From: Chloroflexota bacterium
GTDB taxonomy: Bacteria > Chloroflexota > Anaerolineae > Promineifilales > Promineifilaceae
NCBI GenBank assembly: GCA_020353135.1
Contig: CP070688.1
Span: 4,192,159 to 4,201,690 of the forward strand
Direction of reading: 5' to 3'
Length of the DNA: 9,532 bases
The notes beneath the pieces are model-generated. The model did not search any database and was not told the DNA's origin. It was given only the letters and a program-made list of their open reading frames with translations. Positions 2,246-8,205 of the stretch are shown piece by piece. The translations under genes were made by a program, and so were the position numbers. Position 1 is the first letter of the stretch, and each line of letters opens with the position of its first letter.

Positions 2246-2467
2246 AAACGAAGCGCATGGGCCTTGCTTCTAGCAAGGTTGACGAGGTGGAGGTTCCTCA
2301 CCAAGTGGTGAGGCTAAGGGTGATTCTGAACACGTAAGTATTCAAACGCCCGAAAATCGAATTATCAGCGGATGCCTCCCAGGATTGCCACATCCTGCGT
2401 TTTCCCCCTCCGAAAAGAAGCTTTGCTACAAACCGGTTTGCGCAAGCGACCGACAAAAGGCAAAGCA
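2246..2467 (+). ncRNA. glmS ribozyme: glmS ribozyme (glucosamine-6-phosphate-activated self-cleaving riboswitch), enlarged form
   Basis: This lies in the leader of glmS and reproduces the glmS ribozyme core in order. AAGCGC carries the cleavage site between A2252 and G2253. P1 is CCTTGC/GCAAGG (2262-2267/2273-2278), extended by two G-U pairs. The conserved strand GACGAGGTGGAGGTT spans 2281-2295. ATCGAATTATCAGCGGATG begins at 2356 and is followed by CCTCCC. P3 is CAGGAT/ATCCTG (2380-2385/2392-2397). P4 is GCTTTGC/GCAAAGC (2420-2426/2460-2466), enclosing ACAAACC, a GCAA-capped inner stem and GACAAAAG. Known members cleave themselves when glucosamine-6-phosphate binds, which destabilises the glmS mRNA; in Bacillus subtilis this acts through RNase J1. 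Unusually, 60 nt (2296-2355) are inserted into the core. Assignment is from remembered consensus, not a covariance search, but both sequence blocks and position agree. Confidence 0.92.
2296..2355 (+). other. Two-hairpin insertion inside the glmS ribozyme core
   Basis: In the Bacillus and Thermoanaerobacter ribozymes as remembered, GGUU is followed almost at once by AUCGA. Here 60 nt intervene. Hairpin one is CCTCACC-AAGT-GGTGAGG (2296-2313), a perfect 7-bp stem. Hairpin two has an outer stem GGGTG/CGCCC (2318-2322/2347-2351, one G-U pair), a small internal loop, and an inner stem TGAACAC/GTATTCA with one C-A mismatch. It is capped by a GTAA tetraloop (2334-2337), which is a GNRA type. Confidence 0.7.
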
Positions 2468-2682: not shown

Positions 2683-4527
2683 ATGTGTGGAATTGTCGGT
2701 TATGTCGGCAGCCGTCGGGCCCAGCCTATTCTGCTGGAAGGTCTCAAACAACTGGAATATCGCGGCTATGACTCAGCCGGACTGGCCGTGATAGAGAAAA
2801 ACGGCGCAGTCTCCGTCCGTCGATCGGTCGGCAAGTTGGCCGGCCTGGAGTCGTTAGTAGAGTCGTCCCCAATGCCTGGCCAAATCGGCATCGGCCATAC
2901 GCGCTGGGCTACTCATGGCATGCCTTCTCAGCGCAACGCTCATCCCCATACTGGTATGCGCGGCCGGGTGGTGATCGTTCATAACGGTATCGTAGAGAAT
3001 TATCTACCGCTGCGTCAGGAGCTGACCTCTGAGGGCGTTGAATTCAACTCAGATACCGACACTGAAGTGATTGTCCAGCTGATTGAGCTACACATGGCCA
3101 ACGGGTCTGATCTCGAGCATGCGGTTCGACGGTCTTTAGGCCAAATTAGAGGCTCCAACGCTATCGTGGCCATGGCCTTGGACAGCCCGGAACAATTAGT
3201 GTGCGCCCGTCTGGGAAACGCCGGCGGTATCGCATTGGGCCTTGGTCAGGACGAGATGTTCATCGCCTCGGACATTCCAGCGATCCTGAAACATACACGA
3301 GAAATGATCTTTCTGGAGAATCGGCAGATGGCAGTGGTAGAGGCCGGTGAATACCGCGTGTCTGATCTCGACGGCCGGCCACAGGAAGCTGCGGTGCACT
3401 CAATCCCGTGGGATCCGGTGAGCGCCGAAAAAGGACCCTATCGCTATTTCATGGAGCGGGAGATCTTTGACCAGCCGCGCGCGCTGGTTGACACCATCCG
3501 CGGCCGGGTAGATTTTGATCTTGGCAGGCTCGAGATTCCGGAATTGGGACTCGGCGCGGACGCTACGGCGGAAATTGACAAAATCTTCATCGTTGCCTGC
3601 GGGACTAGCTATTACGCCGGTTTAGTGGGCAAGTATATGATCGAAGCCATCGCCAAGGTGCCGGTAGAGGTGGGCTACGGCTCTGAGTTTCGTTATGCCG
3701 ATCCGTTAATTGACGAGCGTACCGCCGTGCTGGCTATCAGCCAATCAGGCGAAACGGCCGATACATTGGCCGCATGTGATTTGGCCCGCAGCAAAGGGGC
3801 AAAACTCTGGGCAATCGTAAACGTCTTTGGCAGTCAGGCCACGCGGATCTCCGACGGTTACATTGCCATGCATGCCGGCCCGGAGATTGGCGTGGCAACT
3901 ACCAAGGCCTTCACGGCTTCTCTGGTCGATCTCTACCTCCTGGCCTGCATCTTGGGCAAGATGCGGGGCGTCATTTCCGAGTCTGGCTTGCGGGAATTGC
4001 TGGCCGATCTGGCCCACCTACCCGAGTTGGCCGGCCAGGTGCTGGAACGCGACCAGGAGTATCAGGCTCTGGCGGAACGATTCTGCGAAGCGCAAAATTT
4101 CTTGTTTATCGGTCGTGGAATCAACTATCCGATCGCGTTGGAAGGCGCGCTAAAACTGAAAGAGATCAGCTACATACACGCCGAGGGCTATCCGGCCGGC
4201 GAAATGAAACATGGCCCCATCGCCTTGATTGACGAGCAAATGCCGGTAGTAGCTATCGCCACCAGGGATGACTTGTATGACAAAATGGTTAGCCAAATTG
4301 AACAGGCCAAGGCTCGCGGGGGTACGGTTATCGCTTTGGCAACGGCAGGCGACTCCGATATTGCCGGGAAGGCCGATTACGTAATCTACGTGCCGGATAC
4401 ACCGCCGCTGTTGTCGCCGATTGTAAATGTCATGCCGCTGCAGCTCCTCAGCTTCCACATCGCCCTGCTGCGCTCGTGCGATGTCGATCAGCCTCGCAAT
4501 CTGGCGAAGAGCGTGACCGTTGAATGA
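2683..4527 (+). CDS. glmS: Glutamine--fructose-6-phosphate aminotransferase (isomerizing), glucosamine-6-phosphate synthase
   Basis: This cytoplasmic enzyme converts fructose-6-phosphate and glutamine to glucosamine-6-phosphate and glutamate, the first committed step to UDP-GlcNAc for peptidoglycan and other envelope glycans. It has 614 residues, the usual length. The N-terminal class II amidotransferase begins MCGIVGYVG, where Cys2 becomes the nucleophile after Met removal. It carries HTRWATHG (72-79), HNGIVEN (100-106) and SDTDTEVI (123-130). Two SIS domains follow: IFIVACGTSYYAG (301-313) and SQSGETADT (353-361), then FIGRG (475-479) and the KLKEISYIHAEGYPAGEMKH block (491-510). It ends with the classic DQPRNLAKSVTVE. 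ATG at 2683 is preceded by GGAGGG (2670-2675) at a 7-nt spacing. Expression is presumably controlled by the glmS ribozyme in its leader. Its stop overlaps the next gene. No key residue is missing. Confidence 0.98.
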   Translation: MCGIVGYVGSRRAQPILLEGLKQLEYRGYDSAGLAVIEKNGAVSVRRSVGKLAGLESLVESSPMPGQIGIGHTRWATHGMPSQRNAHPHTGMRGRVVIVHNGIVENYLPLRQELTSEGVEFNSDTDTEVIVQLIELHMANGSDLEHAVRRSLGQIRGSNAIVAMALDSPEQLVCARLGNAGGIALGLGQDEMFIASDIPAILKHTREMIFLENRQMAVVEAGEYRVSDLDGRPQEAAVHSIPWDPVSAEKGPYRYFMEREIFDQPRALVDTIRGRVDFDLGRLEIPELGLGADATAEIDKIFIVACGTSYYAGLVGKYMIEAIAKVPVEVGYGSEFRYADPLIDERTAVLAISQSGETADTLAACDLARSKGAKLWAIVNVFGSQATRISDGYIAMHAGPEIGVATTKAFTASLVDLYLLACILGKMRGVISESGLRELLADLAHLPELAGQVLERDQEYQALAERFCEAQNFLFIGRGINYPIALEGALKLKEISYIHAEGYPAGEMKHGPIALIDEQMPVVAIATRDDLYDKMVSQIEQAKARGGTVIALATAGDSDIAGKADYVIYVPDTPPLLSPIVNVMPLQLLSFHIALLRSCDVDQPRNLAKSVTVE

Positions 4528-5161: not shown

Positions 5162-5304
5162 GCGGTGTTGATGCGGTAGTCGCCCCTTCGCGCGATCTGG
5201 ACTTCAGTCAAATCAGAGAGCGGGTAGTTGGGTAGCTTCTGGTCATGTGGCTCCTTGGTCCGGCCGTCATTCCCTGGTCGCCCGCATTTGATGAGCCGTT
5301 GATT

Positions 5305-6669
5305 ATGCGCAGACGACGCTTACTGATTCTGGCTCTAGTCCTCGTTCTGGTCTTGTTGATTTGGCAGTCGCCTGCTCTGCTGAAGGCCGTGCCGAGTCGC
5401 TATGTCGCCGCCTATCTACCGAAGCCCCTCCAGGCGCTGGCCGAACGCGACCATGTCGAGATGTTGCCGACGGTAGACCTTGCCGTCGACACGGCCGCCC
5501 TTCTTGGACAATCGGCGCAGCCGACCCAAGAGGCTGAACCGGTCTCTACCACGACTGAACCCACTCCTTTCGCGACCACGGCCACGCTGTCGCCGGGGGA
5601 TCCGTCAGCCACACCGACGACTTTGGCGGCAACTTCACAGCCATCGCCAACGGCCGAGGCGACGCCTACCCCGACGAACACGCCTATCCCATTCCCGGCC
5701 ACGGCCAGGCTGCGTGCGCTCGATCATCATTTTCAGGGCTGGAACAACTGTGGACCGGCAACAATGGCTATGGCGCTGAGCTATTTTGATCTGCGCCTCA
5801 GCCAAGAACAGACGGCGGCCGTGTTGAAGCCCGATCCCGAGGACCGCAACGTCAGCCCCTACGAAATGGCTGATTATGTCAACAACGAGACTAATCTGGC
5901 TGCTTTGAGCCGGACGAACGGCGACCTTGACTTGGTGCGTCGCCTAGTGTCTCGCGGATTTCCTGTGATCATTGAACTCGGCCTCGACCCGCCGGGCGAG
6001 TATCGTTGGATGGGCTGGTACGGTCATTACCTGCTGGTAGTGGCCTATGATGACCAAAACGAGCAAGTCTGGGCATATGATTCGTGGTTTGGCACCAGTG
6101 AAGTACCTGGCGAAAATGCCGATTCTGAGGGCCGTCAGATCGGTTACGATGATCTGGATACCTACTGGCGCCAGTTCGGACGCAACTATATCGTCCTATT
6201 TGATCCCGTGGATCGTCCAACAGTGACCGAGATAATCGGTCCAGCAATGGATGATGAGACGATGTGGCGCGCCGCGTTGGCTAGAACGCAAGATGAAATC
6301 GCTCACGAGGACGACAACGCCTTTCTCTGGTTCAATCTCGGTACGGCTTATAACGCCTTGGGCGACCACGAAATGGCGGCCGCCGCATTCGACCAAGCCC
6401 GGGCTATAGGTCTGCCCTGGCGAATGCTATGGTACCAATTCGGACCATACGAAGCCTACTACGAGGTCGGCCGCTATGAAGATGTGATTCTGCTGGCCGA
6501 AGTTACTCTCCAGGATCGGCCCTATTTTGAGGAATCCTATTATTATCGCGCCCTGGCCAAGGCAGCCCTAGGTGAACTCAAGCAGGCCCAGGCGGATCTG
6601 GAAAAGGCAGTGAAGCGCAATCCAAATTTCGGGCCGGCGGTCGAGGCATTAGAGCAAATCCGTACTTAG
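5305..6669 (+). CDS. Membrane-anchored or secreted C39-like cysteine peptidase with TPR tail (paralogue 1)
   Basis: Residues are numbered from ATG 5305. MRRRR plus a hydrophobic run (5-19) form a signal peptide or anchor. A Pro/Thr/Ser-rich linker (about 53-133) follows, typical of extracytoplasmic Chloroflexota proteins. The C39-like domain (about 134-310) has Gln144 and Cys149 in FQGWNNCGPA, His241 in GHYLLVVAYDD and Asp259 in AYDSW, so an intact Cys/His/Asp arrangement with an oxyanion Gln. The TPR region (about 337-454) starts DNAFLWFNLGTAYNALGD. C39-like enzymes cleave peptides, classically after Gly-Gly in bacteriocin leaders, but no ABC transporter domain or leader peptide is nearby, so substrate and activity are unknown. 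An in-frame ATG at 5245 would add 20 residues; I prefer 5305 because the Arg-rich start precedes the hydrophobic run. Neither has a clear ribosome binding site. The next gene is its paralogue. Confidence 0.85.
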   Translation: MRRRRLLILALVLVLVLLIWQSPALLKAVPSRYVAAYLPKPLQALAERDHVEMLPTVDLAVDTAALLGQSAQPTQEAEPVSTTTEPTPFATTATLSPGDPSATPTTLAATSQPSPTAEATPTPTNTPIPFPATARLRALDHHFQGWNNCGPATMAMALSYFDLRLSQEQTAAVLKPDPEDRNVSPYEMADYVNNETNLAALSRTNGDLDLVRRLVSRGFPVIIELGLDPPGEYRWMGWYGHYLLVVAYDDQNEQVWAYDSWFGTSEVPGENADSEGRQIGYDDLDTYWRQFGRNYIVLFDPVDRPTVTEIIGPAMDDETMWRAALARTQDEIAHEDDNAFLWFNLGTAYNALGDHEMAAAAFDQARAIGLPWRMLWYQFGPYEAYYEVGRYEDVILLAEVTLQDRPYFEESYYYRALAKAALGELKQAQADLEKAVKRNPNFGPAVEALEQIRT

Positions 6670-6763: not shown

Positions 6764-6831
6764 GTTCGATGTACTTGGTCAGGCGCTCGAAGCGAGACGG
6801 CGAACTTTACGGACGGAGTAACTGTGATTCG

Positions 6832-8205
6832 ATGAGTAAACGAACAAAACGAATCATCCTGGCCATAGTCCTGGTCCAGGTGGTTTTGATCATCGCCTTG
6901 CTGATTTTGCCCCAGGCAGTCCTGGCCATCCCCGGCCGCTACCGTGTGGCTCTGGCCGATCGTTATCCTGTGGTCAGTCAGATTACCGAGGACATGATTG
7001 CGCGAGTTGCGCCGGTCGCCGACGCCTTGCCGGCGCCGGTTGAGCTAAGCGAAAGAGTAGCTATCACCATCCCAACGCTGGCGCCGACGTTGGTTCCGCC
7101 GCCGACCCCCACGCCGACGCCAACTGCTATAGTAAAGGACGCCCCAGTTCAGGTAGCAACTTCGGTGGTTGAGTCGACCCCTAACTCTACGCCGCTGCCT
7201 ACGTCAACGCCAACTCCTGAGCCTCTGCCGGACGACGTCTTGTTGACAGGTATCAAGAGAATCCAACAGAGCTTCAATAATTGCGGCCCAGCCAATCTAA
7301 CCCAGGTGCTGAATTGGCATGGCGACGTGACCACCCAGGCCGAGGCCGCCTCTTATCTAAAGCCAAATCCGGAAGACCGTAACGTAAGCCCTTGGCAACT
7401 CAGCGATTATGTCAACGAATTCACGGAGTTGAAATCGACTGTACACAGCGGCGGCGATATGGAAATGATAAAGCGTTTCATCGCCGCTGGATTGCCCGTT
7501 GTTATCGAGAAGGGTTATGAGCCGGATACGACCCGTTCGCAGGGCTGGTTCGGCCATTACCTGACTGTCTTTGGCTACGATGAAGAGCTACAAATGTTCC
7601 ACAGCATGGACAGTTATCTGAGGGTCGACGAAGTCACCGGTAGAGCCGATCCCTATGAGGAGATCGAGAGATACTGGCAGCAGTTCAATTACACATTCTA
7701 CGTTGTCTACGAACCGGACCAGGAAGCTCAGGTACAAAGCATCCTGGGACAAGACCTGCTGCAACCGATGCAAATGTGGTTGAAAGCGGCCGAAAGGGCG
7801 CAGGCGGAGCTAGAGAATGATCCCGACAACGCCTTTATCTGGTTCAACTTAGGCACCAGCCTCACTCGCCTCGGGGAATTGACCGGCAGTCCCGAATATT
7901 ACGAAAGTGGCGCCGCAGCCTTTGACCAGGCTTTGGCCATTGGCTTGCCGCCGCGTATGCTTTGGTACGAGTTTCGACCCTATTTAGCTTATATGAAGGT
8001 CGGCCGCTACGAGGATATGATCACGCTAGCCGAAGCGGTCCTCGCGACCCAGGGCGGGCAAAATGTCGAGGAGACATACTTGTATCAAGGCCATGCACTA
8101 CTGTTTCAAGGCGATGTAGCAGCCGCGGCCGCTGCCTATAAACGAGCATTGCAACTAAACCAGAACTTCTATCCGGCCGAAATCGCCTTACAGTCAATCA
8201 GTTAG
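6832..8205 (+). CDS. Membrane-anchored or secreted C39-like cysteine peptidase with TPR tail (paralogue 2)
   Basis: This has the same plan as the preceding gene. Residues are numbered from ATG 6832, 457 in all. MSKRTKR plus a hydrophobic helix (8-30) is followed by a Pro/Thr linker (about 70-135, with PTPTPTP). The C39-like domain has Gln146 and Cys151 in QQSFNNCGPA, His242 in GHYLTVFGYDE and Asp260 in SMDSYL. The TPR region runs about 332-457. Blocks shared with paralogue 1 include LKP(D/N)PEDRNVSP, DNAF(L/I)WFNLGT, AAAFDQA and VGRYED. The linkers and domain interiors have diverged, so the duplication is old. The TPR tail has a short extra segment (GELTGSPEYYESG). An in-frame ATG at 6769 would add 21 residues; 6832 is preferred because it places the basic residues directly before the helix. 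GGAG at 6815-6818 is a distant ribosome binding site. The function is unknown, probably at the outer face of the membrane. Confidence 0.86.
   Translation: MSKRTKRIILAIVLVQVVLIIALLILPQAVLAIPGRYRVALADRYPVVSQITEDMIARVAPVADALPAPVELSERVAITIPTLAPTLVPPPTPTPTPTAIVKDAPVQVATSVVESTPNSTPLPTSTPTPEPLPDDVLLTGIKRIQQSFNNCGPANLTQVLNWHGDVTTQAEAASYLKPNPEDRNVSPWQLSDYVNEFTELKSTVHSGGDMEMIKRFIAAGLPVVIEKGYEPDTTRSQGWFGHYLTVFGYDEELQMFHSMDSYLRVDEVTGRADPYEEIERYWQQFNYTFYVVYEPDQEAQVQSILGQDLLQPMQMWLKAAERAQAELENDPDNAFIWFNLGTSLTRLGELTGSPEYYESGAAAFDQALAIGLPPRMLWYEFRPYLAYMKVGRYEDMITLAEAVLATQGGQNVEETYLYQGHALLFQGDVAAAAAAYKRALQLNQNFYPAEIALQSIS

Follow-up and report, generated by a model that had tools for sequence, protein, structure and literature searches.

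The glmS ribozyme of the window (the whole stretch of DNA analysed here, 9,532 bases) carries a 60-nt insertion of two hairpins, and comparison between genomes strongly supports the reading of this insertion as a real structured RNA within the pseudoknot core. Both stems covary across relatives, and the position and short linkers of the hairpins are conserved. The same extended branch also yields ribozyme matches upstream of genes other than glmS.

The ribozyme and its insertion

Among catalytic riboswitches, the glmS ribozyme is a textbook case. In the window, RF00234 was the sole Rfam family above its cut-off, aligning over its full length (model positions 1–167 of 167) with positions 2241–2476 at 40.9 bits against a gathering cut-off of 37. 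This match sits in the 5' leader of glmS, which starts approximately 200 nt downstream and encodes a protein of 614 amino acids scoring 791.1 bits with TIGR01135 (cut-off 418.05). The protein was nearest to those of Anaerolineae (Chloroflexota) MAGs, with 65–68% identity over the best 6 of 80 loci.

The window RNA shares with RF00234 the AGCGC cleavage strand, P1, GACGAGG, P2, AUCGA, GCGGAUG and P3/P4 with a GNRA L4, together with the downstream glmS gene (Table 1). It differs from the consensus by the two-hairpin extension added at the P2/P2.1 joint and in P2.2, where the C5–G61 pair is absent and A5/A61 is found instead, with U6. The RNA is thus identified as a glmS ribozyme, and it is probably active and controls glmS; cleavage presumably takes place between A2252 and G2253, the family cut site taken over by homology. 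As a separate observation by eye, two adjacent and similar ORFs downstream of glmS (5245–6669 and 6769–8205) bear NNCGPA motifs, resemble C39 peptidases with repeat-like tails and appear to be a tandem duplication.

Table 1. Features of the window ribozyme and loci at which related ribozymes precede other genes.
Feature	Position or locus	Strand	Basis
Cleavage-site strand AGCGCAUGG and P1 hairpin	2252–2280	+	Sequence, RF00234 alignment
GACGAGG (P2.1 first strand), P2 5' strand, UU joint	2281–2295	+	RF00234 alignment, model R1
hp1, 7-bp hairpin, loop AAGU	2296–2313	+	Folding, covariation, R1
Linker CUAA, UAA side of UAA/GAN-like frame	2314–2317	+	Parsed relatives, alignment A1
hp2, longer hairpin, loop GUAA	2318–2351	+	Folding, covariation
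Linker GAAA, GAA side of UAA/GAN-like frame	2352–2355	+	Parsed relatives, alignment A1
AUCGA (P2.1 second strand), loop, AUCAGCGGAUG (P2.2 strand), P2 3' strand CCUCC	2356–2379	+	RF00234, R1
P3 hairpin	2380–2397	+	By eye
P4, including an internal loop and capped by a GCAA tetraloop	2420–2466	+	RF00234 alignment, by eye
glmS coding sequence	2683–4527	+	ORF, TIGR01135
Ribozyme directly before glnA	L281, L283, L284, L285, L286 (431–511), L289, L319		
Ribozyme before ada-like/EamA/glnA	L291, L293, L295–L297, L299–L301, L304, L305, L307		
Ribozyme before glutamate-synthase-like gene	L287, L309		
Ribozyme before FAD/Fe-S oxidoreductase	L282		
Ribozyme before CofD/YvcK+phosphohexomutase fusion	L310		RF00234, 62.2 bits

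The original prediction had described a 60-nt insertion at 2296–2355 that forms two hairpins, one with a 7-bp stem (hp1) and one ending in a GUAA loop (hp2), in the pseudoknot region of a ribozyme whose known forms pass almost directly from GGUU to AUCGA. This description proved exact: GGUU (2292–2295) precedes the insertion and AUCGA (2356–2360) follows it, both hairpins are present, and the insertion lies at the P2/P2.1 joint of the pseudoknot core. The RF00234 consensus at this point reads GGUUuAUCGA, and relatives free of the insertion likewise join the two almost directly (e.g., L009).

When folded alone, the insertion reached −22.4 kcal/mol, compared to a mean of −11.5 for shuffled sequences (z −4.67; 0 of 200 shuffles as low). 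The whole 150-nt core (2241–2390) showed no excess stability (z −0.74), with 50 of 200 shuffles folding as well, and the case for the structure therefore depends on the comparison between genomes.

In crystal structures, P2, P2.1 and P2.2 make up the core double pseudoknot, according to PMC11602151. PMC7125110 states that the second strand of P2.1 contributes to the cofactor pocket and that, in the Tte core, point duplications are tolerated better than deletions or base changes. In our own mapping, this second strand corresponds to the UCG of AUCGA in the window, so that the extension would enter one nucleotide ahead of the cofactor-pocket strand.

Covariation and anatomy of the hairpins

A total of 168 distinct cores, including that of the window, were parsed: 126 with two hairpins (the window among them, and L232, which is probably mis-cut), 7 with one hairpin and 35 with none, counts that are not to be read as rates since 68 of the 245 loci (L001–L045, L081–L280) yielded no core, some of them being insert-free and some being copies away from glmS. 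A GlmS start was found downstream in 162 of the 168. Pairing in hp1 and hp2 was tested on a preceding version of the parse, in which L033, L061 and L232 were set aside to leave 123 two-hairpin cores; hp1 could be parsed in 121 of them and hp2 in 102.

The 18-nt hp1 sequences align without gaps, and among 73 distinct ones 503 of 511 cells pair; 1000 shuffles of the 3' sides gave 356 on average (sd 5.8) and at most 373. The outer four pairs of hp2 form in 375 of 388 cells over 97 distinct sequences (200 after shuffling; sd 8.0, maximum 227). Alignment A1 comprises 49 sequences thinned at 0.90 similarity from 66 two-hairpin cores with an 18-nt hp1 and a 10–25-nt hp2. Here, all 13 pairs of hp1 and hp2 show changes on both sides, 96.8% of cells pair over the whole structure compared to 40.7–54.0% when partners are slid by 1–3 columns, and RNAalifold gives the same hairpins unprompted. 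Over 87 rows of the GlmS tree, the two sides of each hp1 pair change in step and about as often as each other: the seven pairs need 7–23 changes on the 5' side and 7–21 on the 3' side, with 7/7 for the outermost pair, 23/21 for the fifth and a less even 18/11 for the innermost.

The original prediction had named covariation in the two stems and the presence of the insertion in relatives as its checks. Covariation was strong for both hp1 and hp2, which rules out chance hairpins; the expectation regarding relatives held only in part, as 35 of the 168 cores are without the insertion.

Of the 121 hp1 hairpins parsed, 94 are 18 nt long and 90 form 7 outer pairs, while the loop is GNRA in 71 and another GCRN in 19. 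By comparison, the length of hp2 among parsed relatives lies anywhere between 8 and 83 nt, and its apical loop is GNRA in only 5 of 93. The window is thus exceptional at hp1, where the loop is AAGU rather than GNRA, and the GUAA loop of its hp2 is not a common feature among relatives. The docking of this GUAA loop elsewhere in the RNA, as originally proposed, was rejected on these counts, GNRA loops being frequent on hp1 but rare on hp2.

The linkers are more uniform: UU stands ahead of hp1 in 106 of 121 cases, the hairpins are separated by CUAA or UUAA in 92 of 121, and hp2 is followed by GAAA or GAAC in 109 of 121, GAAC replacing GAAA in one set (L236–L278). The seven one-hairpin forms lack the UAA–hp2 unit; six keep GAAA and one has AAAA. 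The UAA/GAN internal-loop motif, reportedly described by Lee, Gutell and Russell in 2006, consists of UAA opposite GAN between two helices. In most parsed relatives, the base of hp2 is framed by UAA and, on the opposite strand, GAA, which resembles this motif; the full motif would need a further helix beyond the loop, and no Watson-Crick helix is evident there by eye in A1. Given that only the short linkers are conserved, while the length and loop of hp2 vary, a separate ligand sensor appears unlikely, and a second ligand aptamer within the insertion was rejected as no conserved pocket was seen.

Distribution and possible role of the extension

For a close relative, RF00234 found matches in 183 of 396 genomes from the same class and in 125 of 400 from the same phylum. 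A covariance model built from A1 with the window excluded (R1) recovered the window at 2281–2379 with 75.9 bits. It matched 214 of 392 class genomes, with E <1e-8 in 201 and a best E >1e-8 in 13, and 73 of 400 phylum genomes (66 and 7, respectively), and its weak local matches include insert-free ribozymes such as that of G006, the genome of L009. The phyla covered by R1 were Chloroflexota, one centred on Acidobacteria and one centred on Thermodesulfovibrionales, plus four other genomes. None of the 199 genomes of the Acidobacteria-centred phylum matched, nor did any of the four genomes of other phyla reached through the loci. The Thermodesulfovibrionales-centred phylum gave one unconvincing match in 148 genomes (L321, 37.3 bits), which lacks GACGAGG, shows neither GlmS nor GlnA on inspection by eye and was treated as chance.

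On a GlmS tree of 158 rows (at most 220 N-terminal residues each; 47 of 155 inner branches starred), the insertion labels cluster, with 15 changes for the three classes compared to 36.7 after shuffling, and presence versus absence of the insertion requires at least 9 changes. Ribozymes free of the insertion occur in outlying groups, and others branch from within the insert-bearing ones (L009, L039/L040, L097), which indicates repeated loss or gain of the extension and, from the nested relatives, that it is dispensable. As judged from these comparisons, the two-hairpin insertion is a family trait. Separately, some relatives without this insertion (L025, L033, L090, L094, L107) instead have a hairpin within the loop that follows AUCGA, a second place of extension.

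McCown, Roth and Breaker reportedly described, in RNA 17:728 (2011), extra catalytic-core stems in glmS ribozymes of Deinococcus-Thermus. On that description, extra core stems would be common to both groups. In the titles and excerpts that our literature search returned, we found no glmS ribozyme work on Anaerolineae, and the mentions of Chloroflexi describe no such variant.

We consider it likely that the insertion is a structural extension specific to this lineage and acts as a folding buttress in a genuine glmS ribozyme. The extension departs from the core at the P2/P2.1 joint, just 5' of the AUCGA strand with its cofactor-pocket bases. Its basic unit would be hp1, which has 7 bp in most relatives and is often GNRA-capped, and hp2 would be an add-on held between UAA and GAA, with a length free to vary. 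As a buttress, the extension may help to pre-organise the double pseudoknot, probably without altering how the RNA cleaves or its reliance on GlcN6P. The near-fixed length of hp1 suggests that this hairpin perhaps packs on another part of the RNA; with the AAGU loop of the window, packing via a GNRA loop cannot be general.

A gating or re-tuning role, in which hp1 or hp2 would form or dock so as to slow or sharpen cleavage depending on, for example, Mg2+, temperature, a protein or a small molecule, seems unlikely, albeit the best of the alternatives. It would suit an insertion that lies directly beside the AUCGA strand, which contributes some of the cofactor pocket's lining according to PMC7125110, and that keeps its unpaired linkers conserved. 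However, hp2 varies widely in length (8–83 nt) and loop (5 of 93 GNRA), apart from the linkers, no pocket of conserved unpaired bases was apparent in A1, and nested relatives do without the insertion.

The change in P2.2 bears on a further alternative. Nucleotides 5 and 61 (window 2257 and 2367) read A/A in 98 and C/G in 65 of the 168 cores, window included, and never A/G or C/A; the other five are U/A (2), A/C (1) and G/A (2, where the wrong cleavage strand was probably picked). On the GlmS tree, each of the two nucleotides changes 16 times and they agree in 153 of 153 rows (5 of 158 dropped), while a sign test on starred branches gave four of four changes in the same way, with only four pairs (p 0.125). 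U6 occurs in 75 of the 98 A5/A61 cores and in 32 of 65 with C5–G61 (Fisher p 0.0004, relatedness ignored). The A5/A61 combination may reflect a bulge that has shifted to nt 5, away from nt 6, so that U6 pairs with A61, although 23 of the 98 are without U6. In section 14 of PMC7125110, a similar bulge shift is inferred from mutant data and the C5–G61 pair is described as not well conserved in known ribozymes, and we thus regard this as a variant position rather than a defining one.

That the extension offsets a P2.2 helix weakened by A5/A61 in place of C5–G61 is improbable. In line with such compensation, A5/A61 is found in 91 of 133 insert-bearing cores and in 7 of 35 insert-free ones, but these 7 cores manage without an extension and C5–G61 is kept in 39 of the 133, counts on which strict compensation was rejected; further, the enrichment of U6 with A5/A61 fits the shifted bulge (U6–A61) and not simply a weaker helix. 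A functionless neutral or mobile hairpin insertion is barely credible and, from the alignments, appears already largely refuted by covariation: it would agree with the absence from some nested lineages and with some long hp2 that look repeat-like by eye (L018, L027, L193), but not with conserved position and linkers, the nearly constant length of hp1 and numerous compensatory changes made in concert.

Compact Firmicutes forms are the subject of the structures and mutant maps cited above. Two covarying hairpins beside the cofactor-binding strand indicate that elaboration at this place is accommodated by the core and retained in evolution, and the natural sets of RNAs with two hairpins, one or none are suited to tests of added structure in pseudoknot folding.

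Ribozyme copies at other genes

At least two R1 matches were found in 23 of the 214 matching class genomes. We inspected 40 places with 41 matches (L281–L320), mostly second copies or RF00234-negative and not a random sample, and assigned downstream genes by tblastn (L282 and L310 by family search). The 41 matches precede glmS (17), glnA directly (7), an ada-like gene followed by EamA and glnA (11), an ada-like gene followed by the contig end (2), a glutamate-synthase-like gene (2), an FAD/Fe-S oxidoreductase gene (1) and a CofD/YvcK+phosphohexomutase fusion gene (1). The order in L286 is ribozyme, glnA, ribozyme, glmS.

The GlnA of L281 scored 552 bits with TIGR00653 (cut-off 429), and the other GlnA proteins tested pass the Pfam cut-off. 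Ada-like, glutamate-synthase-like and fusion proteins also pass Pfam domain cut-offs; they miss the NCBIfam full-length cut-offs (Ada 163/345, glutamate synthase large subunit 211/1047, YvcK 132.5/196), and the names Ada, glutamate synthase and YvcK are therefore approximate.

RF00234 itself scored above its cut-off at L281, L282, L283, L284, L309 and L310, and below it at L285 (34.9), L286 (35.0) and L287 (23.0). It gave no match at E <=0.05 at L289, L290, L291, L293 and L295–L300, and none at E <=1 at L301, L305, L307 and L319.

All 20 glnA and ada copies carry AGCG[G/A]CUG upstream, instead of AGCGC, together with AUCAGCGG; these strands would pair if the bulge were moved to nt 4 (C5–G62, U6–A61). 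The cleavage strand is less sure in L298 and L299, since it lies 99–102 nt before ACGAGG. A further mark of the 13 ada copies is [C/U]ACGAGG together with AUCGG. At the cleavage strand, AGCGC is common to the two glutamate-synthase-like copies and the glmS ones, and L310 has GGCGC.

GlmS consumes glutamine in making GlcN6P, so that a gene set comprising glnA and glutamate-synthase-like genes makes metabolic sense. We see about an even chance that the extended Chloroflexota branch is a multi-gene switch acting on glmS, glnA, ada-eamA-glnA, the glutamate-synthase-like gene and the YvcK fusion, in which GlcN6P would cut mRNAs for glutamine supply and the glnA subfamily with the bulge at nt 4 might have an altered choice of cofactor. 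If these extra copies are active, control by GlcN6P would extend from amino-sugar synthesis to nitrogen assimilation. The 2011 catalogue of McCown and colleagues is said to hold only two ribozymes outside glmS mRNAs. A literature search for the glmS ribozyme with glutamine synthetase or glnA, at the level of titles and the starts of abstracts, returned nothing on such copies.

Finally, 6S RNA (RF00013, above cut-off) was detected in L285 (98–273), L290 (52–227), L293 (51–227) and L319 (137–312), where it ends approximately 30–105 nt ahead of the glnA- or ada-linked ribozyme.
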